Assembly: GCF_000230735.2 (NCBI RefSeq)
Contig: NC_019962.1
Span: 310,001 to 374,000, forward strand
Source: Natrinema pellirubrum DSM 15624
GTDB lineage: Archaea > Halobacteriota > Halobacteria > Halobacteriales > Natrialbaceae
Direction of reading: 5' to 3'
Length of the DNA: 64,000 nucleotides
Made by a program: the position numbers and the translations under genes. The notes under the pieces were generated by a model that saw only the letters and a program-made list of their open reading frames with translations, made no database searches and was not told where the DNA came from. This document shows, piece by piece, positions 43,541 through 54,094 of the stretch (positions are counted from its first letter, which is position 1; each line of letters opens with the position of its first letter).

Positions 43541-44254
43541 TCAGTCGTCCGCGGTGGCCTGCTCGAGTTCGTCGTCCGCTTCGACCTCGGCTTCGGCGGC
43601 CGCTTCGGCCTCCCGCTCGGCGGCTTCCTCGGCTTCTTTCTTCTCCTTGATCTTCTTCAGGCGGAACGTCTCCTCGCGTTCCTGTTCCTCGAGTTTCTGC
43701 TCGATGTACTCCTGGTTCTCGTAGAGTTCGGGCAGGAGCTTGAACTCGAGGGCGTTGACGCGACGCTTGGTGGTCTCGATCTCGCGGAGCATCTTCTTCA
43801 TCGCCGTCTCGACCTCGGCGGCGAGGATGATGCTCTCAAGGAGGTCCTCGTAGGCCTCGGCGGCCTCGTCGATGCGTGCGGAGGTGCCCATGATCCCGTA
43901 GCCGCGCTGATCGAGGCTCTTGGTGACCTTCGAGGACTCGATCTGGGGGACGACGACGCCCATGATGTTCTTCGATTCGGTAGTGATCTCGGGGTGTTCC
44001 TGCAGCGCCGCCGCGGCACCGCGGACCGCGACGTCGCCTTCCATCGCCCGGGCCATGTTGATCTTCTTCTGGGCGTCCTCGTAGTCCTGTGCGAGGTCGC
44101 CGCGGACGTCCTGGGCCTTGTCCAGAATGTCCATGAACTCCATGATCAGCCCGTCGCGTTTCTTCTCGAGCGTGCCGTGACCCCGCTCGGAGAGCTCGAT
44201 GCGATCCTCGATCGCCATCAAGTTCTTGCGGGTGGGCTTGACGTCGTTGGCCAT
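43541..44254 (-). CDS. atpD: A-type ATP synthase subunit D
   Basis: A 237-residue central-stalk subunit that forms the rotating shaft with F and C. The sequence begins [25 protein letters not shown] with long coiled-coil helices at both ends and ends in a Glu/Ala-rich tail. The C-terminal helix motif [17 protein letters not shown] is typical of the family. In this window it is separated from atpB by about 9.8 kb of other genes. A GTTATCC box (rc of 44281-44287) 27-33 nt upstream of the ATG gives it its own leaderless transcript. Confidence 0.95.
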
Positions 44255-44280
44255 CTTGTCGAGGGGTAACGCCCCCAGTC

Positions 44281-44287
44281 GGATAAC
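44281..44287 (-). promoter_or_regulatory. TATA-like box of atpD
   Basis: GTTATCC on the minus strand, 27-33 nt upstream of the ATG at 44254. It suggests that atpD is transcribed independently of the rest of the ATP synthase genes here. Confidence 0.5.
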
Positions 44288-44393
44288 TGTTTGCAGTTTT
44301 CCGTGAGCGACGGCGTCGCACTGACTCGAGGCGACGATCGATCGGCGCCCAACTCGAGTTTACGAACGGATTTTCATTCCGTAATCAACAGCA

Positions 44394-45215
44394 TTAATCA
44401 AATATATAACTACAAAGTGCGGATCCACCAGCAGAGCAGCCATGTCGCTGAATTACCTCTACGGCAGCAGCACAGAACGCTAGGCAAGCGGTATACCCGA
44501 CAGGACCGCTAGGTCCAACTGAGGTACAGACGCCCGCACACTGGCTTCGTTGAATGTTATCTCCGAACTTTTCGCAAGCCGTCACAATTATCGCAATACA
44601 TGTTTCTTGACCAATTGTGTCATGGAAGCTCTGCGTGGACAAGTTATCGGACGAAGGCTCCACCTCGTACGTACCATTGCTTTTTGCTCCGTTTTCGCCA
44701 TCTGGAGCATAGTCCATTACTTCAGACACCCCTGAATCCATGGCCTGTTCGGTACTAACCATACCTCGAGCAATGGCCGTGTTACGACCACCCGATTCGC
44801 CATCGACAGTAACGGCATAGATTATCCCCGCCTTATGAGTCTCTTCTTTAGGTTTGAGACCAAAAATTATGACGACCGGATTTTTCTCGTTAATTGATTC
44901 GTTACTAGTGATTACTTGCGTTGCGAACGCTCCTGCCTCTTCTAGGCCGTGTTTGTCCTTAACATCATCAACAAACGGATTCCCGATTTCGGAGCGTTTC
45001 ACCACTTCTAATGCATCTTCGGTTTCGCTTTCGGAAAGTTTGTTCGTATCAATAACGTTGAGATCATCAATATCTCCACTATTCAATTCTCCGTCACCAG
45101 TGGCGCTCCCAACTCCGCTAACTCCGATTAATCCGACTGACGCAATACCGGTTATCGCGCCTGTTTTGAGTATGTCTCTCCGATTGAACTCGCTATCTTG
45201 ACTCTCGTCAGACAT
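44394..45215 (-). CDS. halocin C8-like precursor (Tat-exported, cysteine-rich C-terminus)
   Basis: A 273-residue protein with a Tat signal (FNRRDILKTGAITG, then a hydrophobic stretch ending GSATG). Residues about 45-200 form a cysteine-free acidic domain. The last 71 residues (from QETCIAIIVTACEKFGD) contain all eight cysteines, mixed with Gly/Ala-rich hydrophobic runs (GYTACLAFCAAAVEV). Halocin C8 is made from a precursor of about this size: its N-terminal part serves as the immunity protein and a cysteine-rich C-terminal peptide of about 76 residues is the antimicrobial. The match is in layout and cysteine density, not proven identity. The gene is AT-richer than its neighbours, suggesting transfer. 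PH-domain membrane proteins are encoded divergently. Confidence 0.75.
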   Translation of the reverse strand: MSDESQDSEFNRRDILKTGAITGIASVGLIGVSGVGSATGDGELNSGDIDDLNVIDTNKLSESETEDALEVVKRSEIGNPFVDDVKDKHGLEEAGAFATQVITSNESINEKNPVVIIFGLKPKEETHKAGIIYAVTVDGESGGRNTAIARGMVSTEQAMDSGVSEVMDYAPDGENGAKSNGTYEVEPSSDNLSTQSFHDTIGQETCIAIIVTACEKFGDNIQRSQCAGVCTSVGPSGPVGYTACLAFCAAAVEVIQRHGCSAGGSALCSYIFD

Positions 45216-45373
45216 TGCAGTCTAAAATCATCCTCGGTGGACAATATTATTTTCTCGCGATAACAGTCTCGTACAATAGTGGAAATTAATATGTTGTGTT
45301 ATAAGCCAAATACATAAATCTTTTTACTGTATAATGGGAAATCTCTTGGTAAAAGAGTGCTAAAGTAAGGCTG
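45216..45373. promoter_or_regulatory. AT-rich divergent promoter region
   Basis: This 158-bp gap separates the halocin-like gene from the PH-domain gene pair and is very AT-rich. It holds AATAATATT-like and ACTGTATAAT-like boxes, so both units could be controlled from here. No operator repeat was recognised. Confidence 0.5.
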
Positions 45374-45868
45374 ATGGATGTACTGGCTGGTCCAAGTGCC
45401 TCTCCGTCCAATACAAGAGTCGAGACGACGATGAACCGATTGCATCCTAGTGTTCGAGTTGTCTGGGGAGTAAAATGGATCCTATTCGGCGTTGGTGTTG
45501 GAATAGTCACCTCGTTCGTCACCGGCTTTGACACGCACGTCATTTCAATCGTGACTGTGACCTCTATCATCGGTATCGCGGTCGCTAGCCTTCGTTATCG
45601 AGCGTTCCGATACGAACTCCGCGACGACGGTATATACCTTCGACGCGGTATACTCACCCAGAAAGAGACGGTCATCCCAGTCGGTAGTGTTCAGCAGATC
45701 GATGTCGACAAACCACTTCTAGACAGACCCTTTGGGCTCGTTCACGTACAGATCTACACTGCAGGGACGTTTGGGGGTCGAAGTACGATCCCCGGGATCA
45801 AATTGGACACTGCGATCGATCTCGCGAATCGACTCGACCGACTCGCAAGGGGAAATTCTGACATATGA
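45374..45868 (+). CDS. PH-domain membrane protein, YdbS-like
   Basis: A protein of up to 164 residues; the ATG at 45431 (MNRLHPSVRVVWG) is the likelier start and gives 145 residues. Two membrane helices (WGVKWILFGVGVGIVTSFV and the next hydrophobic stretch) precede a bacterial-type PH domain (bPH2): YELRDDGIYLRRGILTQKET, then VGSVQQIDVDKPLLDRPFGL. This is the layout of Bacillus YdbS. It overlaps the next gene by four bases (ATGA), so the pair is translated together. In Bacillus the YdbS/YdbT pair protects against certain antimicrobial peptides, which fits the neighbouring halocin-like gene. Confidence 0.85.
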   Translation: MDVLAGPSASPSNTRVETTMNRLHPSVRVVWGVKWILFGVGVGIVTSFVTGFDTHVISIVTVTSIIGIAVASLRYRAFRYELRDDGIYLRRGILTQKETVIPVGSVQQIDVDKPLLDRPFGLVHVQIYTAGTFGGRSTIPGIKLDTAIDLANRLDRLARGNSDI

Positions 45869-47343
45869 AACTGAGTCAGCGCGCTATTCTAGCCAGAGTA
45901 CTCGAGCAGTATGACCTCGGATTGTTTGCGATGCTATCCGTGTTGCTGACGGTCCTCAGTGACAAGTCGGGTACCGAAGCAATTATTTCTGGCCTTCAGT
46001 CTCTGGTTCTGGTCGCCCTGTTTTATGGACTCTTCCAGCTTATTCTCCAGATCGGTCAGTGGTGGAACTACGAACTTCACTTAGAGGACGAGTCGATCGT
46101 CGTTCGTTCGGGGATCGTTCGCCCGAAGCGTCGGAGGATCCCATTCGACCGAATTCAGCACTCGGCGGTTTCGACGACCACAGTGAGCCGCTTGTTCGGA
46201 CTTGCCGCGTTAAAGTGCGAAACCGCAGGAAACCCCGACGAAGCCGATGTTTCGGTTCGCTACCTTGAGCCCGAAGACGCCGAAGCACTTCAACAGCGGA
46301 TACGCTCCGGTGCCGATGCAGCGTCATCACAGACACCGAACCGTGGTCGCATCTTCTCGTTCGGGACACGAACACTTGTCCTATACAGTGTGGCACGTCT
46401 CCACCTCCGGACGGTTCTCCCGGCCGTGTTAACGGGAGCAGCAGTGCTTTACTTCGAGCTAGAATCGGCAGCCAGCCTCCGATCGATTGTGGTCGCGCTC
46501 TTCTCGGATCTGCTACCGCTGTCCTCGGCAGTCACGCTGGGACTGGTTGCCACCGGCGGGTGGCTCGTCGGTGTCGTCCTCGCAATCGAACGGATGGCTA
46601 TGTTTCGGCTCTCAGCGGGTGACGACTCGTTCCGACGACGCCACGGTATACTCAGAACAATCGATGCAGATGTCTCGACTGATCGGATTCAGGTCGCCCG
46701 CATCAGATCAAATCCGCTGCACCGAATTTTCGGGGTAGTACAGGTAGATGTCGGTACCGCTGGTCTCTCTGGAGTCCTTCCGTTCGGCTTACAGTGGCCG
46801 TTGGCACCACTCGCCCGGCGCGATGTCGCTTGGGACCTCGTTGAACGGGCCGCCGGGACTTCACAACCGACGTTTCAGTCCCTTCCCGCTCACGCGCGCC
46901 GACGATACGTTGTCAGGTACTGTCTCATGATCATCATACTGACCGTCGTAACGGCAGTTGCACAGCAATTCGTTGCGACGATCCGAGTAATTCCGCTCTG
47001 GTCGTGTAGTGTCCTCTTCGTGTTCGCTCCGCTCGCCGGCCATATCGCATGGACACATCGCGGGTACGCACTGCTCGACGACGCTATTGTCGTCCGGTAC
47101 GGCTTCTGGACGCAACGGATCTATGTCGTTCCGACCGACAACATCCAGAATCTGACCATCTCACAGTCACCATTTCAGAAACGCGTTGACCTCGTCTCGG
47201 TACGCCTAGACATTGCGTCGCTGCCGTTCCTGCCTGGAGTTCCGCTCCCCGACATCAGCGAGTCAGTCGGAGGGCACCTCAAGCGACGATTTCTCGAGAC
47301 CGAGCCATCAAGCGAACGGTCGTCGGAACCAACGGCCACTTAG
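45865..47343 (+). CDS. PH-domain membrane protein, YdbT-like
   Basis: A 492-residue membrane protein with three bPH2 domains alternating with membrane helix pairs. The domains open at about residues 70 (NYELHLEDESIVVRSGIVRP), 250 (RLSAGDDSFRRRHGILRTID) and 395 (GYALLDDAIVVRYGFWTQRI). Each is followed by a QxxxxxxSxxxRxFG-like segment, for example DRIQHSAVSTTTVSRLFGLA. Helix pairs lie near 20-58, 170-235 and 350-385. This matches Bacillus YdbT. It is coupled to the YdbS-like gene by a 4-nt overlap. An immunity or envelope-protection role is inferred from the family and from the halocin-like neighbour. Confidence 0.85.
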   Translation: MKLSQRAILARVLEQYDLGLFAMLSVLLTVLSDKSGTEAIISGLQSLVLVALFYGLFQLILQIGQWWNYELHLEDESIVVRSGIVRPKRRRIPFDRIQHSAVSTTTVSRLFGLAALKCETAGNPDEADVSVRYLEPEDAEALQQRIRSGADAASSQTPNRGRIFSFGTRTLVLYSVARLHLRTVLPAVLTGAAVLYFELESAASLRSIVVALFSDLLPLSSAVTLGLVATGGWLVGVVLAIERMAMFRLSAGDDSFRRRHGILRTIDADVSTDRIQVARIRSNPLHRIFGVVQVDVGTAGLSGVLPFGLQWPLAPLARRDVAWDLVERAAGTSQPTFQSLPAHARRRYVVRYCLMIIILTVVTAVAQQFVATIRVIPLWSCSVLFVFAPLAGHIAWTHRGYALLDDAIVVRYGFWTQRIYVVPTDNIQNLTISQSPFQKRVDLVSVRLDIASLPFLPGVPLPDISESVGGHLKRRFLETEPSSERSSEPTAT

Positions 47344-47919
47344 GACTCGGTCTGCCCGAATCGTCAGTACTCGGGGCCAAACGACACGCTAATTTGAAAC
47401 ACAGGTGCCTCGTCTTCGATTCAGACTTAGACAGTAAAATGATTACTGACGTGTCTAATGTCGGTTTTCGTCGCATCGGTGCTGGTGATCTGCTTGCGAA
47501 GATTGCCAGCGTTCTCGAGCGTGTCCAATAGCCACCGACCGATGACTGGCCGCTATTCTTAATTCCTCATGCGGATCAAAGTATAGCACTGTCGAAGCCG
47601 CTACGGGCGAGCGTCCGAAGTTCGGGGATAAGTTTGATTTCTTCTCGTTGGTAGCCTCTCGTACGGAATCGCACAGGCGGTTTCAGGATGGACGACATAG
47701 CTTTGCCAAAACGGGACTGTGAATTACACGCTCTCTTGTATGAGTGAATCACTGTCTCGCCAATAGGTGCCACTGAAACGATTCATGTTGCTCGAAATCT
47801 GATGTGCAATAGCTTTCAGTGGCTACATTTCTCCTCGTATATCGATCGTATCAGGTACTGTTGAAATCGGGCCAAGCGATACCCTCTGAATATGGATCGC
47901 TGACGAACGTGATCCCTTT
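47344..47919. other. 576-bp gap, possible decayed DNA
   Basis: No convincing gene is present. Short frames exist on both strands (for example 47576-47773 minus, 65 residues; 47439-47531 plus, 30 residues), but none has a recognised family. A 10-bp inverted repeat, GCCACTGAAA (47769-47778) and TTTCAGTGGC (47814-47823), is present. Base composition is AT-richer than the flanking ABC genes. It could be the boundary of the inserted halocin/PH module. Confidence 0.45.
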
Positions 47920-48933
47920 TCACTCGAGGACGTGGACCCGCTGCTCGTCGATCGAGAGCCCGACGGAGTCGCCGACCCGGTAGCCGTCGATCCCGTGGGC
48001 GTGCAGCGTCACCGTCGTGTCGTCGGGCAGCGTCGCCGTGAGCCGGGTCCGGTCCCCGAGATACGTCACGTCGGTCAGGTCTGCCTCGAGCGACCCCTCG
48101 CCGAGTTCGAACGCGGCGGGCCGGGCCGCGACCCGCACCGAGCCGTTCGTCTCGGCCGCCACGGGCAGTTCGGTAAAGCCCAGATCGACGTGGCCGTTCT
48201 CGGCGACGCCCTCGAGCAGGGTCGAACTCCCGACGAAGTTCGCGACGAAGGGATTTTCGGGTCGGCGGTAGATCTCCGCAGGCGGGCCGACCTGCTCGAG
48301 CGTGCCGTCGGCCAGCACCGCGATCCGATCGCACATCGCCATCGCCTCCTCCTGGTCGTGGGTGACGTAGAGAGCGGTCACCTCGAGATCGGCCAGCAGG
48401 TCGCCGATCTCGTCGCGCAGCCGGGTCTTGAGTTCGGCGTCCAACCCCGTCATCGGCTCGTCGAGCAGGAGGACGTGAGGTTCGATCGCGAGCGCACGCG
48501 CGAGGCCGACCCGCTGTTGTTGGCCGCCCGACAGCGTCGTCGGCCGGCGGTCGGCCAGTTCGGCGATATCGAGCATGGCGAGCAGTTCGTCGGCACGCTC
48601 GCGGCGCTCGGCTTTCGGGACCCCCTGCATCTTCGGCCCGAACGCGACGTTCTCGCGGACGGTCATGGTGTCGAACAGGGCGTAGGACTGGAAGACCAGA
48701 CCGACGTTGCGCTCTTCGGGTGGGACGTGTGTCACGTCGACCCCGTCGAACAGCACCCGGCCCTGCGTCGGCGTCTCGAAGCCGGCGATGGTCCGCAACG
48801 TCGTCGTCTTTCCACAGCCCGAGGGGCCAACGACCCCGAGGATTTCGCCGTCCCGGATCGTCAGATCGATCCCGTCGACGGCCACCTCGTCGCCGTAGGC
48901 CTTCGTCAGTGACTCGAGGGTGACGTCACTCAC
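47920..48933 (-). CDS. ABC importer ATP-binding protein
   Basis: A 337-residue ATPase of the spermidine/putrescine, ferric iron, thiamine and 2-aminoethylphosphonate importer group. Walker A GPSGCGKTT is at 36-44, the signature LSGGQQQRVGLARAL near 135, Walker B LLLDEPMTGLD near 156, and the switch histidine in YVTHDQEEAMAM. Residues about 240-337 form a TOBE domain typical of this importer group. It is the last gene of a four-gene transport operon with two permeases and a binding protein. Confidence 0.92.
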   Translation of the reverse strand: MSDVTLESLTKAYGDEVAVDGIDLTIRDGEILGVVGPSGCGKTTTLRTIAGFETPTQGRVLFDGVDVTHVPPEERNVGLVFQSYALFDTMTVRENVAFGPKMQGVPKAERRERADELLAMLDIAELADRRPTTLSGGQQQRVGLARALAIEPHVLLLDEPMTGLDAELKTRLRDEIGDLLADLEVTALYVTHDQEEAMAMCDRIAVLADGTLEQVGPPAEIYRRPENPFVANFVGSSTLLEGVAENGHVDLGFTELPVAAETNGSVRVAARPAAFELGEGSLEADLTDVTYLGDRTRLTATLPDDTTVTLHAHGIDGYRVGDSVGLSIDEQRVHVLE

Positions 48934-49012
48934 GGGTGGTCACCCCCCTCGAGTACGCTCCGTTCTGTCGGTGTGTGAGCGATCCGATTCCGTACTCCGT
49001 TCGTAGCGTGTC

Positions 49013-49972
49013 TCATTGGTGTGCGGTCGAGAAGCCTCGCTTGCCGAGCAGTTGCAGGACGACGATCGCGGCCACGACGATCAGGAAGTACACCGAGACC
49101 GCCGCGGCCGACTGCAGGTACAAAGCGTTGTTCGCGATGTTACGATAGAGAAACATCGCGAACGGATCGGGGCTACCGCTGGCGACCTTGTGCGTGAAGT
49201 TGAACTCCGCAGCCGCGAGCGTCCAGGTGATGATCGCGCCGGCGACGATCCCCCGCTTGGCGTGCGGAACGATGACCGTCAGGAAGGTCCGCGGCCACGA
49301 GGCTCCCAGCGATCGGGCGCTCTCCTCGAGGCGGACCAGATCCATCGACTGGAAGGAACTTTGGACGGTCAACACCATGTAGGGCGATTTGAGCAGACAG
49401 TAGCCGGCGAGCAGTCCCAGTGACGACCGGCCGTGTTCGGGGTACGTCTGGATGAAGGCGATCCCGAGGATCAGCCCCGGCACGAGCGGCAGGATCGCGA
49501 ACGTGTTGATCCAGTCACGGGCGTAGAAGTCGTACCGCGCGAGCGCGTACGCGATCGGGACGCCGATCAGGACGTTCAGGACCATCCCGCCGGTCGCGAT
49601 CAGGAGGCTGTAGGTCAGCCCGGGGACCGCGTTCTGTCGGACGCCGTACTCGCCGAACCCGAGGACCTTCCGCCAGTGATCGAACGTGACGAACCCCGTG
49701 GGCAGGACGCCGCTGCCGCTCTCCGCGAACGAAGAGACGAACGCGACGAGTACCGGCACCGTCAGGAACGCGGTCACGACGGCGACGACGACGGCGACGA
49801 TCGGCCGACCGAACAGCGTCGAGAGGGCCCTGCCGGACCGTGACCAGCGGCGGTTCCGGGCCCCCGTCGCCGAGCCGCCATCGAGACGAGTCGTCGACGC
49901 GGCGGCCGTGGAGTCCGCGTTCTCGGCCGCGCTCGAGCCGTCGTCCGCTCGCGGTGGCGTGTCCCCGGTCAT
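49013..49972 (-). CDS. ABC importer permease 2
   Basis: A 319-residue membrane permease with about six helices after a long, Ala/Asp/Ser-rich N-terminal tail of about 55 residues. The binding-protein-dependent loop (EAA-type) is seen as RLEESARSLGASWPRTFLTVIVPHAKRG. It pairs with the permease encoded upstream; its start codon lies 1 nt before the stop of that gene. Which solute it carries is unknown. Confidence 0.9.
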   Translation of the reverse strand: MTGDTPPRADDGSSAAENADSTAAASTTRLDGGSATGARNRRWSRSGRALSTLFGRPIVAVVVAVVTAFLTVPVLVAFVSSFAESGSGVLPTGFVTFDHWRKVLGFGEYGVRQNAVPGLTYSLLIATGGMVLNVLIGVPIAYALARYDFYARDWINTFAILPLVPGLILGIAFIQTYPEHGRSSLGLLAGYCLLKSPYMVLTVQSSFQSMDLVRLEESARSLGASWPRTFLTVIVPHAKRGIVAGAIITWTLAAAEFNFTHKVASGSPDPFAMFLYRNIANNALYLQSAAAVSVYFLIVVAAIVVLQLLGKRGFSTAHQ

Positions 49973-49973
49973 C

Positions 49974-50894
49974 TCAGACCTCCACCGCGTCGTCGACGAA
50001 CCGCAGCCCGACGAACGTGAACGCGACGATGAAGACCACGTAGACGAGCCCGATCGCGGCCGCCACGTCGGGGGCGTACGAGCCGACGCTGACCTCGTTG
50101 TGTATCTGCAGCGTTACGACCTGGTGGCTCTGCAGGATGAGTACCGTCCCGAAGATGGCGAGCCCCGAGCGGAAGGTGAGGATCGCGGCGGCGGCGATAC
50201 CCGGCTTGATCTCGGGGAGGGTCACGTGATAGAACGTCTCCCAGCGGCTGGCACCGAGTGCGCGGGCCGCCTCCTCGGCCTGTGCGTTGACTTCCGCGTA
50301 GGTCCCCCGAAGCACCATCGTCGCCCGCGGCAACAGCGAGTAGACGTAGCCCAGAAAGAGGCCGGTGATCGCCGTCGCGCTCGCGAGATCGAACGCGCTC
50401 GCACCGGTCACGGTCGCGATCGCGTTGGTGACCACTCCCTGGTTGCCGAGCAGGACCGTGATGAGGTAGGCGACGACGATCCCCGGCAGCGCGATGGGAA
50501 ACGACACCGCCGCGACGACGACCCGCTCCGCCGGCAAGTCGTACTTCTCGAGGGCGTGTGCGACGGCGACCCCGAGCGCGACGCTGACTGCCGTCGCCAG
50601 CCCGACGAACCACAGCGTGTTCCAGGCGACCCGTCGGTACGTCGGGGTCGTCACGAGCGTCTCCCAGGCCCCGAGCGACCAGCCCTCCATCCAGATCGTG
50701 TCCTCCGCGAGGCTGATCCGGACGAGCATCGCCAGCGGGACAAAGCCCGCGACGATCGCGAGTACGAAGAAGGGGAGACAGAGGACCGCGATCCGCCGGC
50801 GCTCGCGCTCGCGTTCGGTCGTCGGACGGGCGGTCGTCGACGCGAGCGTCGCGATGCGCCGGACCGACGTTGTCGCCGATTTCCGGACCGACAT
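49974..50894 (-). CDS. ABC importer permease 1
   Basis: A 306-residue membrane permease with about six helices. The EAA loop is AQAEEAARALGASRWETFYH, then VTLPEIKPG. The N-terminus is basic with a repeated Glu/Arg stretch before the first helix. It lies between the binding-protein gene (6-nt gap) and permease 2 (1-nt gap), so the operon is tight. It belongs to the same importer class as the ATPase at 47920. Confidence 0.9.
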   Translation of the reverse strand: MSVRKSATTSVRRIATLASTTARPTTERERERRRIAVLCLPFFVLAIVAGFVPLAMLVRISLAEDTIWMEGWSLGAWETLVTTPTYRRVAWNTLWFVGLATAVSVALGVAVAHALEKYDLPAERVVVAAVSFPIALPGIVVAYLITVLLGNQGVVTNAIATVTGASAFDLASATAITGLFLGYVYSLLPRATMVLRGTYAEVNAQAEEAARALGASRWETFYHVTLPEIKPGIAAAAILTFRSGLAIFGTVLILQSHQVVTLQIHNEVSVGSYAPDVAAAIGLVYVVFIVAFTFVGLRFVDDAVEV

Positions 50895-50900
50895 CCTCGA

Positions 50901-52046
50901 TCACTGGGCTCCCTGCAGCGGGGTTCGCTCGACGAGTTCCTCCTGAATGTCGGTCTGGTTCTCGACGAGGGTCTCCTGATCGACGGTAAAGCCCGCCGCC
51001 TCGTAGGACGACTGGTCGGGGAACTCGTCGGGCTGGTCGAGTTCGTTCGCTCGGATCGGGCGGACGTAGGCGTCGAAAAACAGCTCCTGACAGTCCTCGG
51101 TTAGGACGTAGTCCATGAACAGTTTCGCCGCCTCGGGGTTGGGCGCGTTCCGCAGGAGGGCGTAGCCGTAGGGGACGCTCATCGCGCCCGGCTCGCCCTC
51201 GGGCCCCTCGAGGATCGCGACCTCGATCTGGTTCTCGTCGAACTCGTCGTTGTTGTACTTGAGGTTCAGCCCGGTGTAGTCGTACTCGATGACGGTCGAG
51301 ATCTCGCCGCTGGTCATCGGCCCCTCGACGTTACGCCGGAAGTCCGCGCCGTGGTCGGCGATCTCCTCGTGGTACTCGATGACCGGATCGAGATTGTCGA
51401 GGTCGCCGCCGTAGGCCCGGTTGACCGACAGCGCCGACGCCTGTCCGTTGGCGGTGTGTGGCGGCGTGAACGCCAGGTCCTGTGCGATGTCGGGGTGTTT
51501 CAGGTCCTCCCACGTTTCGGGGGCGTCTAGTCCCCGCTCCTCGTAGACGTCGGCCCGGTAGGTCACCGCGGTCGTCATCTGCCGGGTCGCGGTCACGTGT
51601 CCGTTGTCGGTCTTCAGATCGTCGGGGACGACATCCCAGTTGGCCGGCTTGTAGTCGGTCGTCAGTTCGTCGTTCATCGCCTCGAGGCCGAACGAGTAGC
51701 CGCCGTTGTACGCCGAGTGGGTTGGGTTCCGAGCGTTGGCCCGCATGTCCTCGAGGGCCTCGCCGGAGGAACCCTGCGCGTCGTACAGCGGGAGGTCGTA
51801 CTCGTCTTCGAACGCCTCCATGACGGCACCCCAGTTCGACCAGCCGGTCTGGACGCAGTAGATCTGCAGTTCGTCGGGGAACGCCGCGGAGTCGACCTCG
51901 GTCTCGTACTCGCCGTGGCCGACCGTGAACGTCTGCCCGCTCCCACCGCCGGTCAGGTCGCTCAGACAGCCCGCCATCGCGGCGGTCCCGGCGGCGGCCC
52001 CACTCGAAAGCACTGCGCGTCGTGTCGTCCCTGTCGGGTCGGACAT
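50901..52046 (-). CDS. ABC importer solute-binding lipoprotein
   Basis: A 381-residue extracellular binding protein, the first gene of the transport operon. The signal has a twin arginine (TTRRAVLSSG) and a lipobox AMAGC with C27 lipidated. The mature part is a type II periplasmic-binding-protein fold (family 1) with YRADVYEERGLDAPETWEDL and GAMSVPYGYALLRNAPNPEA. It resembles binding proteins for ferric iron, thiamine, polyamines or aminoethylphosphonate; the ligand is not decided by sequence. The ATG at 52046 (MSDPTGTTRR) was preferred to a TTG at 52052. Confidence 0.9.
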   Translation of the reverse strand: MSDPTGTTRRAVLSSGAAAGTAAMAGCLSDLTGGGSGQTFTVGHGEYETEVDSAAFPDELQIYCVQTGWSNWGAVMEAFEDEYDLPLYDAQGSSGEALEDMRANARNPTHSAYNGGYSFGLEAMNDELTTDYKPANWDVVPDDLKTDNGHVTATRQMTTAVTYRADVYEERGLDAPETWEDLKHPDIAQDLAFTPPHTANGQASALSVNRAYGGDLDNLDPVIEYHEEIADHGADFRRNVEGPMTSGEISTVIEYDYTGLNLKYNNDEFDENQIEVAILEGPEGEPGAMSVPYGYALLRNAPNPEAAKLFMDYVLTEDCQELFFDAYVRPIRANELDQPDEFPDQSSYEAAGFTVDQETLVENQTDIQEELVERTPLQGAQ

Positions 52047-52164
52047 ACCCAAGAATCCGTCAAAACCTACTAATCTGTTGCTATGTTCGGAATTCTTACC
52101 TATATAGGAGGCCGTAGTGACACGGAGCGGTGGGGACCGATCCCCACCCGACCCTGGGCTCGAG

Positions 52165-53778
52165 TCAGCCCTGTCCGACCATCCGCTCTTCGTCGTCCCA
52201 CTCCTCCTGGCGAAGTTCGTACTTCTGGACCTTGCCGGTCGCGGTCGTCGGCAACTCGTTGACGTACTCGATCCGCCGGACGGCCTTGTACCCCGCGAGC
52301 TGCTCGCGGGTGAACTCGGTCAGTTCCTCGGCCGAGACCGGCGGGTCGTTTGGATCACCGTTCGACGGCACGACGAAGGCCTTCGGCGTCTCGCCCCACT
52401 CGTCGCTCGGTGCCGGGATCACGGCCGCGTCCGCGACCGCCTCGTGATCGAACAGCGTGTCCTCGAGTTCGATGCTCGAGATGTTCTCCCCGCCCGAGAT
52501 GATGATGTCTTTCTTGCGGTCCTGAATCGCGATCATGCCGTTCTCGTCGACTGTCGCGAGGTCGCCGGTGTGGTAGTAGCCCTCGACGCGGTCGGTGAAG
52601 GCCTCCTCGGTCGCCTCGGGCTTGTTCCAGTACTTCTCCATGATCTGGTTGCCCCGGACGACGACTTCGCCGAGCGTCTCGTCGTCCCGGGGAACGTCCG
52701 CGCCGTCCTCGTCGACGACGCGGATCTCGGTGCCCAGATAGGCCAGCCCCTGCCGTTTCTTGATCCGGAACCGGTCGTCGCTGTCCGCCTGGAAGTGCCG
52801 GCGCGCGTCGGAGGTGGTGATCAGCGGCCCCGTCTCGGTCGCGCCGTAGACGTGTTTCAGGTACCAGCCGAACTCGTCCTCGACGGTCCGGATGGTCGCC
52901 TCCGGCGGGGCCGAGCCCGCGGTCGCGAGCCGAACGTCGGCCTCGCCGGTCGTCTCCGGTTCGTGGTCCCGATAGTAGTCGATCAGCATGTTCAGCACCG
53001 TCGGTGCGCCACACATGTACGAGACGTCCTCGGCCCGGACCGTCTCGAAGATCTCCGCGGCGTCGACCCCGCGCGTACAGACGTGGGTCGCGCCGATGCC
53101 CGTCACCGCGAAGATGTGTCCCCAGCCGTTCGCGTGGAACATCGGCAGCGTCCACAGGTAGGTGTCGTCGTCGGTGATTTCCTGATGGCCGACCAGCAAG
53201 TAGGCGTGGATGGTCTCGCAACGATGCGTGCGACAGACCCCCTTCGGATCCCCCGTCGTCCCCGAGGTGTAGTTGATCGTGATGATCTCGTCCTCGCTCA
53301 TCTCGGGGCGGTCGTACTCGGGACCCGCGTCCTCGAGGACGGCGTCGAAGCTCTCCCAGTCGCCCTCGACGGCATCAGCGTCGTTCGTAATGAACGTCTC
53401 GGTCGGCACGTCGTCGCGGATCGCCTCGATCCTGTCGGCGTACTCGTAGTCGGCGTAGATCGCATCCACGCCCGCGTCCGAGAGGATGTACTTGAAGTCA
53501 TCGGGCGTGAGCCGATAGTTCAGCGGCGTGTGGACCGCCCCGGTCTGCATGCTTCCGTACGCCGCCTCGAGGTGGTAGTGGGTGTTCGGATCCAGCACGG
53601 CCACGCGGTCGCCCTTCTCGATCCCCCGTGCTTGCAGCGCCGCCGCGAACCGATCGGCGCGCTCGCCGAGGTCGTCGTAGGTGAACCGTTCGCCCGTCGT
53701 CGCCACGACGGCCTCGTCGTCGCTGTAATGGGTCCGCGCCCGGTCGAGGAACTCCGGAACGAGCAATGGTTTGTGCAT
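52165..53778 (-). CDS. acyl-CoA synthetase (AMP-forming), copy 2
   Basis: A 537-residue ANL enzyme, paralogue of the protein at 16461-18071 and in the opposite orientation. It has the P-loop NYTSGTTGDPKG, the motif YGATETG, the hinge region YHTGDLATVDENG and the catalytic lysine in TATGKVQK. The first halves vary, but several DNA blocks are nearly identical between the two copies; 86 bases match exactly (52430-52515 and 17721-17806). The ATG at 53778 (MHKPLLVPEFL) was chosen over a GTG at 53787. The acid it activates is unknown. Confidence 0.9.
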   Translation of the reverse strand: MHKPLLVPEFLDRARTHYSDDEAVVATTGERFTYDDLGERADRFAAALQARGIEKGDRVAVLDPNTHYHLEAAYGSMQTGAVHTPLNYRLTPDDFKYILSDAGVDAIYADYEYADRIEAIRDDVPTETFITNDADAVEGDWESFDAVLEDAGPEYDRPEMSEDEIITINYTSGTTGDPKGVCRTHRCETIHAYLLVGHQEITDDDTYLWTLPMFHANGWGHIFAVTGIGATHVCTRGVDAAEIFETVRAEDVSYMCGAPTVLNMLIDYYRDHEPETTGEADVRLATAGSAPPEATIRTVEDEFGWYLKHVYGATETGPLITTSDARRHFQADSDDRFRIKKRQGLAYLGTEIRVVDEDGADVPRDDETLGEVVVRGNQIMEKYWNKPEATEEAFTDRVEGYYHTGDLATVDENGMIAIQDRKKDIIISGGENISSIELEDTLFDHEAVADAAVIPAPSDEWGETPKAFVVPSNGDPNDPPVSAEELTEFTREQLAGYKAVRRIEYVNELPTTATGKVQKYELRQEEWDDEERMVGQG

Positions 53779-54094
53779 ACATAACACGCTTTACCGACGA
53801 TCCATACGATCCTTTCCCCCTGTTGCACGCAGTGATAGTCACGATATTTGATCGATAGAAGCCGGTCTCGCCCGCTCGAGGTCGACCGTCGAATCGGCCC
53901 CGCCGTTGGGGCTGACCGGTGCAATTCCCGGCCCCTGTGGCGGCCACGGCTGCGGGGGCGCGACGCGCCGACGACGGCGTTGCCTGTTCTGAGCGTGTCG
54001 CCCGCGTGCGCGGAAACTGGTGTATTGCTCGAGTACCAGCGACTCCCCGGCTCGAGTCGAAGAAACGGAGGCGGCGGTGAAACGCAGGTGGTCG
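53779..54094. other. intergenic DNA before atpB end
   Basis: This gap separates the acyl-CoA synthetase start from the atpB stop codon. It is GC-rich on the right side. No gene is supported; small frames here are in non-coding composition. It should hold the synthetase promoter and the end of the ATP synthase transcript. Confidence 0.5.

Follow-up and report, generated by a model that had tools for sequence, protein, structure and literature searches.

This locus raises the question of why a haloarchaeal gene for a Cys-rich precursor should lie beside a pair of genes for YdbS/YdbT-type PH-domain (bPH) membrane proteins. The genes lie in a window of 64,000 nucleotides from Natrinema pellirubrum DSM 15624, the whole stretch of DNA analyzed here, and an earlier note had read them as a peptide antimicrobial together with its immunity system. 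Divergent neighbors alone make no module, and the real evidence comes from recurrence at other loci.

The precursor ORF (44394-45215, minus strand) encodes a protein of 273 aa. A predicted Tat-type signal peptide spans approximately residues 1-38 (45102..45215, minus strand) and contains the motif NRRDILK with the arginine pair at residues 12-13; this RR motif is invariant across a ten-member alignment, and the Pfam TAT_signal profile gives a sub-threshold score of 14.2 bits. The propeptide domain that follows (approximately residues 39-195; 44631..45101, minus strand) is a candidate HalI-like domain on the basis of an iterative profile and a low-confidence AF2 model, in which a helix-loop-helix precedes four strands. 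A fold claim from the AF2 model of the full-length precursor, with a pLDDT of 39, was dropped. The Cys-rich core, residues 196-273 (44397..44630, minus strand), was identified from TIGR04449, the Cys positions, and AF2, and would have a mass of ~8.0 kDa assuming a cut at residue 196. Just ahead of the core, LSTQS at residues 192-196 (44628..44642, minus strand) is a candidate processing motif; among 66 precursors, 26 have the pattern [STV][TVIAS]Q in the 22 aa that precede the first core Cys, compared with 26 of 394 background windows. The protein has eight cysteines, at positions 206, 214, 226, 230, 244, 248, 260, and 268, and none outside this stretch, as the earlier note had stated in describing a Tat-exported 273-residue protein with Cys only in its last 71 residues. 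Because all eight are kept in ten related precursors of the window branch that are just 19-75% identical to that of the window, they are no chance cluster.

Searching solved structures with the precursor gave no meaningful match, and no precursor relative was found among the viral contigs searched. The plasmid collection held one relative, from Haloterrigena turkmenica, that was already in our set. The collection scan was run with a three-member precursor alignment, the ten-member alignment being too divergent for scanning, and its sole match was Natrialba aegyptia contig_48.

Halocin C8 is released from a Tat-exported precursor of ~280 aa whose C-terminal ~76 aa form a Cys-rich core (PMC11509114). 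The window precursor resembles this system (ProC8, HalC8/HalI) in its layout, with a Tat-type signal and a Cys-rich C-terminus, and shares its NCBIfam domain family with the 283-aa precursors of our set. Residues 204-270 score 25.0 bits against NCBIfam TIGR04449 (halocin C8-like domain), narrowly above the curated cut-off of 24, so the halocin C8-like label of the earlier note is upheld by a direct profile match of the C-terminal domain, though for a border-line branch. The precursors of four of the five relatives that have an accessory bPH pair also pass this cut-off. The closest orthologue, 75% identical, is that of L072, whose DNA is that of Natrialba aegyptia contig_48; it scores just 19.6, under the cut-off, which counts against the module reading and places the window branch at the edge of the TIGR04449 model. 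L072 begins at a contig edge, with the bPH side outside the available sequence.

We assigned seven loci (L021, L086-L089, L091, and L114) tentatively to a HalC8-type set by precursor length, high TIGR04449 scores, and core sequence. The 283-aa length of the L087-L089 precursors equals that published for ProC8 (PMC11509114). Direct hhalign comparison of the two branches was weak for the cores (P 0.003, probability 11%) and not significant for the N-domains (probability 0.2%), and iterative profiles were therefore used. An iterative profile built from four HalC8-type cores recruited the window core in round 1 at 9.7e-5 and finally gathered all 66 cores. With the N-domains, a profile from the window branch reached nearly all other precursors, including those of HalC8 type (L087 at 2.4e-9 in round 2), whereas the reverse search with a HalC8-type profile did not reach the window (E 2.2). 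The precursor N-domain may share ancestry with the immunity domain of halocin C8, a relation that only one search direction recovers. A two-part defence of the kind proposed in the earlier note, with this domain as one part, is a possibility. HalC8 and its own immunity domain are reported to be encoded in a single gene (PMC11509114; Sun et al. 2005, cited in PMC12893001). Collectively, the profile comparisons support placing the window precursor in a border-line halocin C8-like branch with a Cys framework unlike that of halocin C8 itself.

This difference lies in the number and spacing of the cysteines. Halocin C8 has ten Cys in a 2-7-3-7-13-7-8-8-5 framework, whereas the eight of the window core follow the palindromic spacing 7-11-3-13-3-11-7. 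In the spacing table, cysteines are missing in matching pairs: the first and tenth in the window type, the fifth and sixth in L078, L108, and L119b, and the third and eighth in L103, L131, and L135. The exceptions are L098 and L129 with nine Cys and L134 with six. Paired loss and palindromic spacing agree with nested disulfides, predicted for the window core as 206-268, 214-260, 226-248, and 230-244. The AF2 model of the core, built from two sequences, has four helices at a pLDDT of 85.3. Its structural comparison gave saposin A at Z 6.5, a value at which chance matches between helical bundles occur, and seven chains with Z >5 that comprise saposins A and D, granulysin, and NK-lysin; the first Foldseek match was NK-lysin at E 3.3. 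Weak by itself, this resemblance agrees with the palindromic spacing and the mostly paired Cys loss, and together they suggest a membrane-active, possibly saposin-like peptide.

On the other side of the intergenic region lie two plus-strand genes that are both of the bPH_2, YdbS/YdbT kind, confirming the coupled divergent PH-domain pair that the earlier note had described. The smaller, YdbS-like protein (ORF 45374-45868, PF03703 8.5e-17) has two hydrophobic segments by hydropathy. Its closest homologue, in L073, reads MNRLH at the matching point, so the true start is probably 45431, giving a protein of 145 aa. The larger, YdbT-like protein (45865-47343, 492 aa, PF03703 2.8e-41) has three bPH_2 stretches and several hydrophobic segments, and the two genes overlap by 4 nt (ATGA). 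The divergent intergenic or promoter region (45216..45430) measures 158 bp up to the annotated ORF, as first noted, and probably 215 bp if the small gene begins at 45431; its A+T content is 61-66%, with 66% for the 158 bp. The cassette has a G+C content of 52.6% compared with 65-67% in its flanks, which suggests recent acquisition.

Such an arrangement of precursor and bPH genes is otherwise known from bacterial bacteriocins. In Bacillus subtilis, YdbST gives protection against amylocyclicin, a circular bacteriocin (PMC8144471), and YdbS/YdbT-like pairs serve in transport of, or immunity to, leaderless bacteriocins (PMC8657885, PMC11580447), so that a part in immunity or in export is plausible here as well. 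Like the window pair, YdbST consists of adjacent small and large three-bPH_2 membrane proteins (PMC8657885); unlike it, YdbST belongs to the sigma-W stress regulon, and the antimicrobial is made by another species. The loci of the leaderless bacteriocins enterocin DD14, lacticin Q, and aureocin A53 likewise encode a bPH_2 pair with a small helical peptide (PMC8657885, PMC7559574). The enterocin DD14 pair measures ~140 and 460 aa (PMC8657885), and a saposin-like character has been described for lacticin Q, aureocin A53, and enterocin 7 (PMC7559574). These loci differ from that of the window in being bacterial and in lacking a leader peptide or Tat-type precursor, and for DD14 a transport role is proposed.

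We searched 125 genomes of the taxonomic family and 391 of the class Halobacteria with TIGR04449, finding matches in 24 and 43, respectively, and surveyed the neighborhoods of 65 precursor loci up to 10 kb on either side with a bPH_2 profile built from the organism's own genome. Nine of these loci (the window, L073, L075, L077, L079, L080, L092, L096, and L098) have bPH genes no farther than 2.5 kb from the precursor. All nine belong to the window's family, and no surveyed locus outside that family has a bPH gene beside its precursor. The inner 323 kb thus hold nine bPH-linked loci and the outer 882 kb none (p ~7e-6, or 0.0014 counting five lineages, the loci being non-independent and including near-duplicates among those without bPH). 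The precursor/bPH association proposed in the earlier note therefore recurs, and the pairing is not chance. A named example of the L077 arrangement is HTUR_RS26060 with HTUR_RS22475 on Haloterrigena turkmenica pHTUR02. L098 looks decayed, with a 150-aa precursor lacking the Tat signal and a bPH gene in pieces. The remaining 56 loci are without bPH, including the other three in the window's own genome, which counts against the module reading; that genome encodes four precursors above the TIGR04449 cut-off and three bPH pairs, and only the window precursor has a bPH neighbor.

The other three precursors of this genome are a HalC8-type precursor (L021:9565-10506; C1:3771564-3772505) and two further halocin C8-like precursors, L022 and L023. 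A block around atpD, which encodes subunit D of the A-type ATPase, and around the DUF6276 and PAN genes (window 43541-53787; also L076 and L098) carries differing halocin C8-like precursors. Their placement at different points of this block in three genomes (that of the window, G040, and G053) suggests an insertion hotspot. Genes for an ABC importer and for an acyl-CoA synthetase-like protein are also part of the block in the window.

The bPH pair could instead be a general envelope-stress set that adjoins the precursor by accident, in a functionally meaningless neighborhood. The earlier note had held that bPH pairs occurring in haloarchaea without such precursors would speak against a module, and this is half the case: YdbT-like proteins that match the large bPH protein of the window are found in 123 of the 125 family genomes, nearly all without an adjoining precursor, but these form a separate housekeeping clade. 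When the family genomes were searched with the large bPH protein, 12 relatives scored 190-659 bits, followed by a drop to 147 bits or less. In the tree, an accessory bPH clade of 13 members (support 100/100), including the window protein (row L136), stands apart from the housekeeping pairs present in nearly every genome. Six of the 13 are precursor-linked (the window, L073, L075, L077, L079, and L080) and one is that of G055, described below; elsewhere in the tree, precursor linkage is confined to two sister genes among the housekeeping ones, L092 and L096. Fisher's test on linkage of 6/13 in the accessory clade against 2/25 in the rest of the tree, treating related rows as separate cases, gives p=0.011. 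Clustering of bPH labels on the precursor tree is not claimed, as the four changes observed were matched or undercut in 114 of 500 shuffles.

Six accessory bPH pairs, in two genera and at two other conserved places, have no adjoining precursor, and a profile search found none beside them. This counts against the module reading and favors a general stress function. Beside one of these pairs, the 262-aa RR protein L168:5874-6662 was considered as a halocin and rejected; its six Cys lie mid-protein and our halocin profile does not match it. Upstream of the accessory bPH pair, this protein is accompanied by a membrane protein of 108 aa. In L167, L168, and L171, from three of the four genomes of genus g10, the unlinked pair is preceded by a 332-aa protein that by eye resembles an M48-type metalloprotease (HELAH).

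For the six linked pairs, the precursor and bPH distance matrices correlate at r=0.93 (permutation p=0.0097). Precursors and bPH proteins also group alike, the window with L073, L075 with L079, and L077 with L080, and gene order varies among these groups between divergent, tandem, and convergent. From this correlation and shared grouping under differing gene order, precursor and bPH pair appear to travel together. The co-divergence, the several arrangements, and the absence of bPH-linked loci from the outer flanks make an accidental stress set improbable, more so than a role in export.

That export role, in which the bPH pair would aid export or release of the peptide as proposed for DdE and DdF of enterocin DD14, is itself unlikely. 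Both DdE and DdF are required for transport of this leaderless bacteriocin (PMC8657885). Unlike leaderless bacteriocins, the window precursor carries a Tat-type signal itself, and immunity is favored for that reason; most related precursors are also without a bPH pair. A further argument comes from genome G055, where the site that in G056 holds a precursor carries the bPH pair and a gene of 111 aa but lacks the precursor stretch. Both flanks of this stretch, and the bPH genes themselves, align between the two genomes at 82-86% identity. A bPH pair kept without its precursor is as expected of orphan immunity genes, and both loss there and gain in G056 are possible.

Loci without bPH genes tend to carry another membrane protein. 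A small multi-span membrane protein (50-260 aa, at least two hydrophobic spans, no more than 450 bp from the precursor) lies beside the precursor at 40 of 56 loci without bPH, compared with 65 of 351 for the other genes of these loci (18.5%; p=4e-17, with genes picked by a simple routine of our own, spans counted by hydropathy, and each near-duplicate locus entered as a separate case). These genes are mostly just downstream of the precursor on the same strand, and 9 of 10 of the proteins examined match no Pfam family. The enrichment points to an immunity slot, and the small multi-span proteins are probably also immunity proteins. L075 and L079 carry both a 113-115-aa membrane gene and a bPH pair. 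The HalC8-type loci are without an adjoining small multi-span membrane gene. In the 204-aa membrane protein L076:8236-8850, also beside a precursor, a C-terminal stretch is weakly like winged-helix regulators, below cut-offs.

The Cys-rich protein might also be exported without being antimicrobial, for example as a secreted saposin-like protein that signals or binds lipids, the bPH pair then being its partner in the membrane. Saposin folds can bind lipids without killing, and we know of no tested activity for most TIGR04449 members. The sporadic distribution of precursors, the low G+C content of the cassette, the family link to halocin C8, the membrane-protein slot, and the partner that stands without a precursor in G055 are against such a function, which we consider the least likely of the alternatives.

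The best explanation, to which we give a probability of about 60%, is a halocin-type peptide-antimicrobial module in which the bPH pair protects the producer; antimicrobial activity and immunity are what we infer for its two parts. The precursor would be exported, most likely via Tat, and a cut near LSTQS would free an 8-kDa, four-disulfide, saposin-like helical peptide that attacks the membranes of competing haloarchaea. The YdbS/YdbT-type pair in the producer membrane would guard against this peptide, occupying the slot held by a small multi-span membrane protein in most related loci.

Producer immunity has been described for halocin C8 (PMC11509114). In the open-licence papers searched, no immunity gene was proposed for other halocin C8-like precursors, and there was no earlier report of a halocin-like precursor paired with bPH genes; such a report may exist elsewhere. 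These loci offer concrete immunity candidates, namely the bPH pair or the small membrane protein adjoining the precursor. From them also come predictions of disulfide pairing and fold that apply to the family, as well as a starting point in the search for more archaeal antimicrobial peptides. A more general proposal, which we hold tentatively and as somewhat doubtful, is that halocin C8-like peptides are saposin-like, membrane-active, and built on nested disulfides, and that haloarchaea are protected from them by an exchangeable membrane-protein slot for which the YdbS/YdbT pair, known to date from bacterial bacteriocin loci and defence, is one option, so that bacteria and archaea would share one protective device against one kind of peptide. 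If the bPH pair does protect its producer, bacterial and archaeal bacteriocin immunity would be joined.
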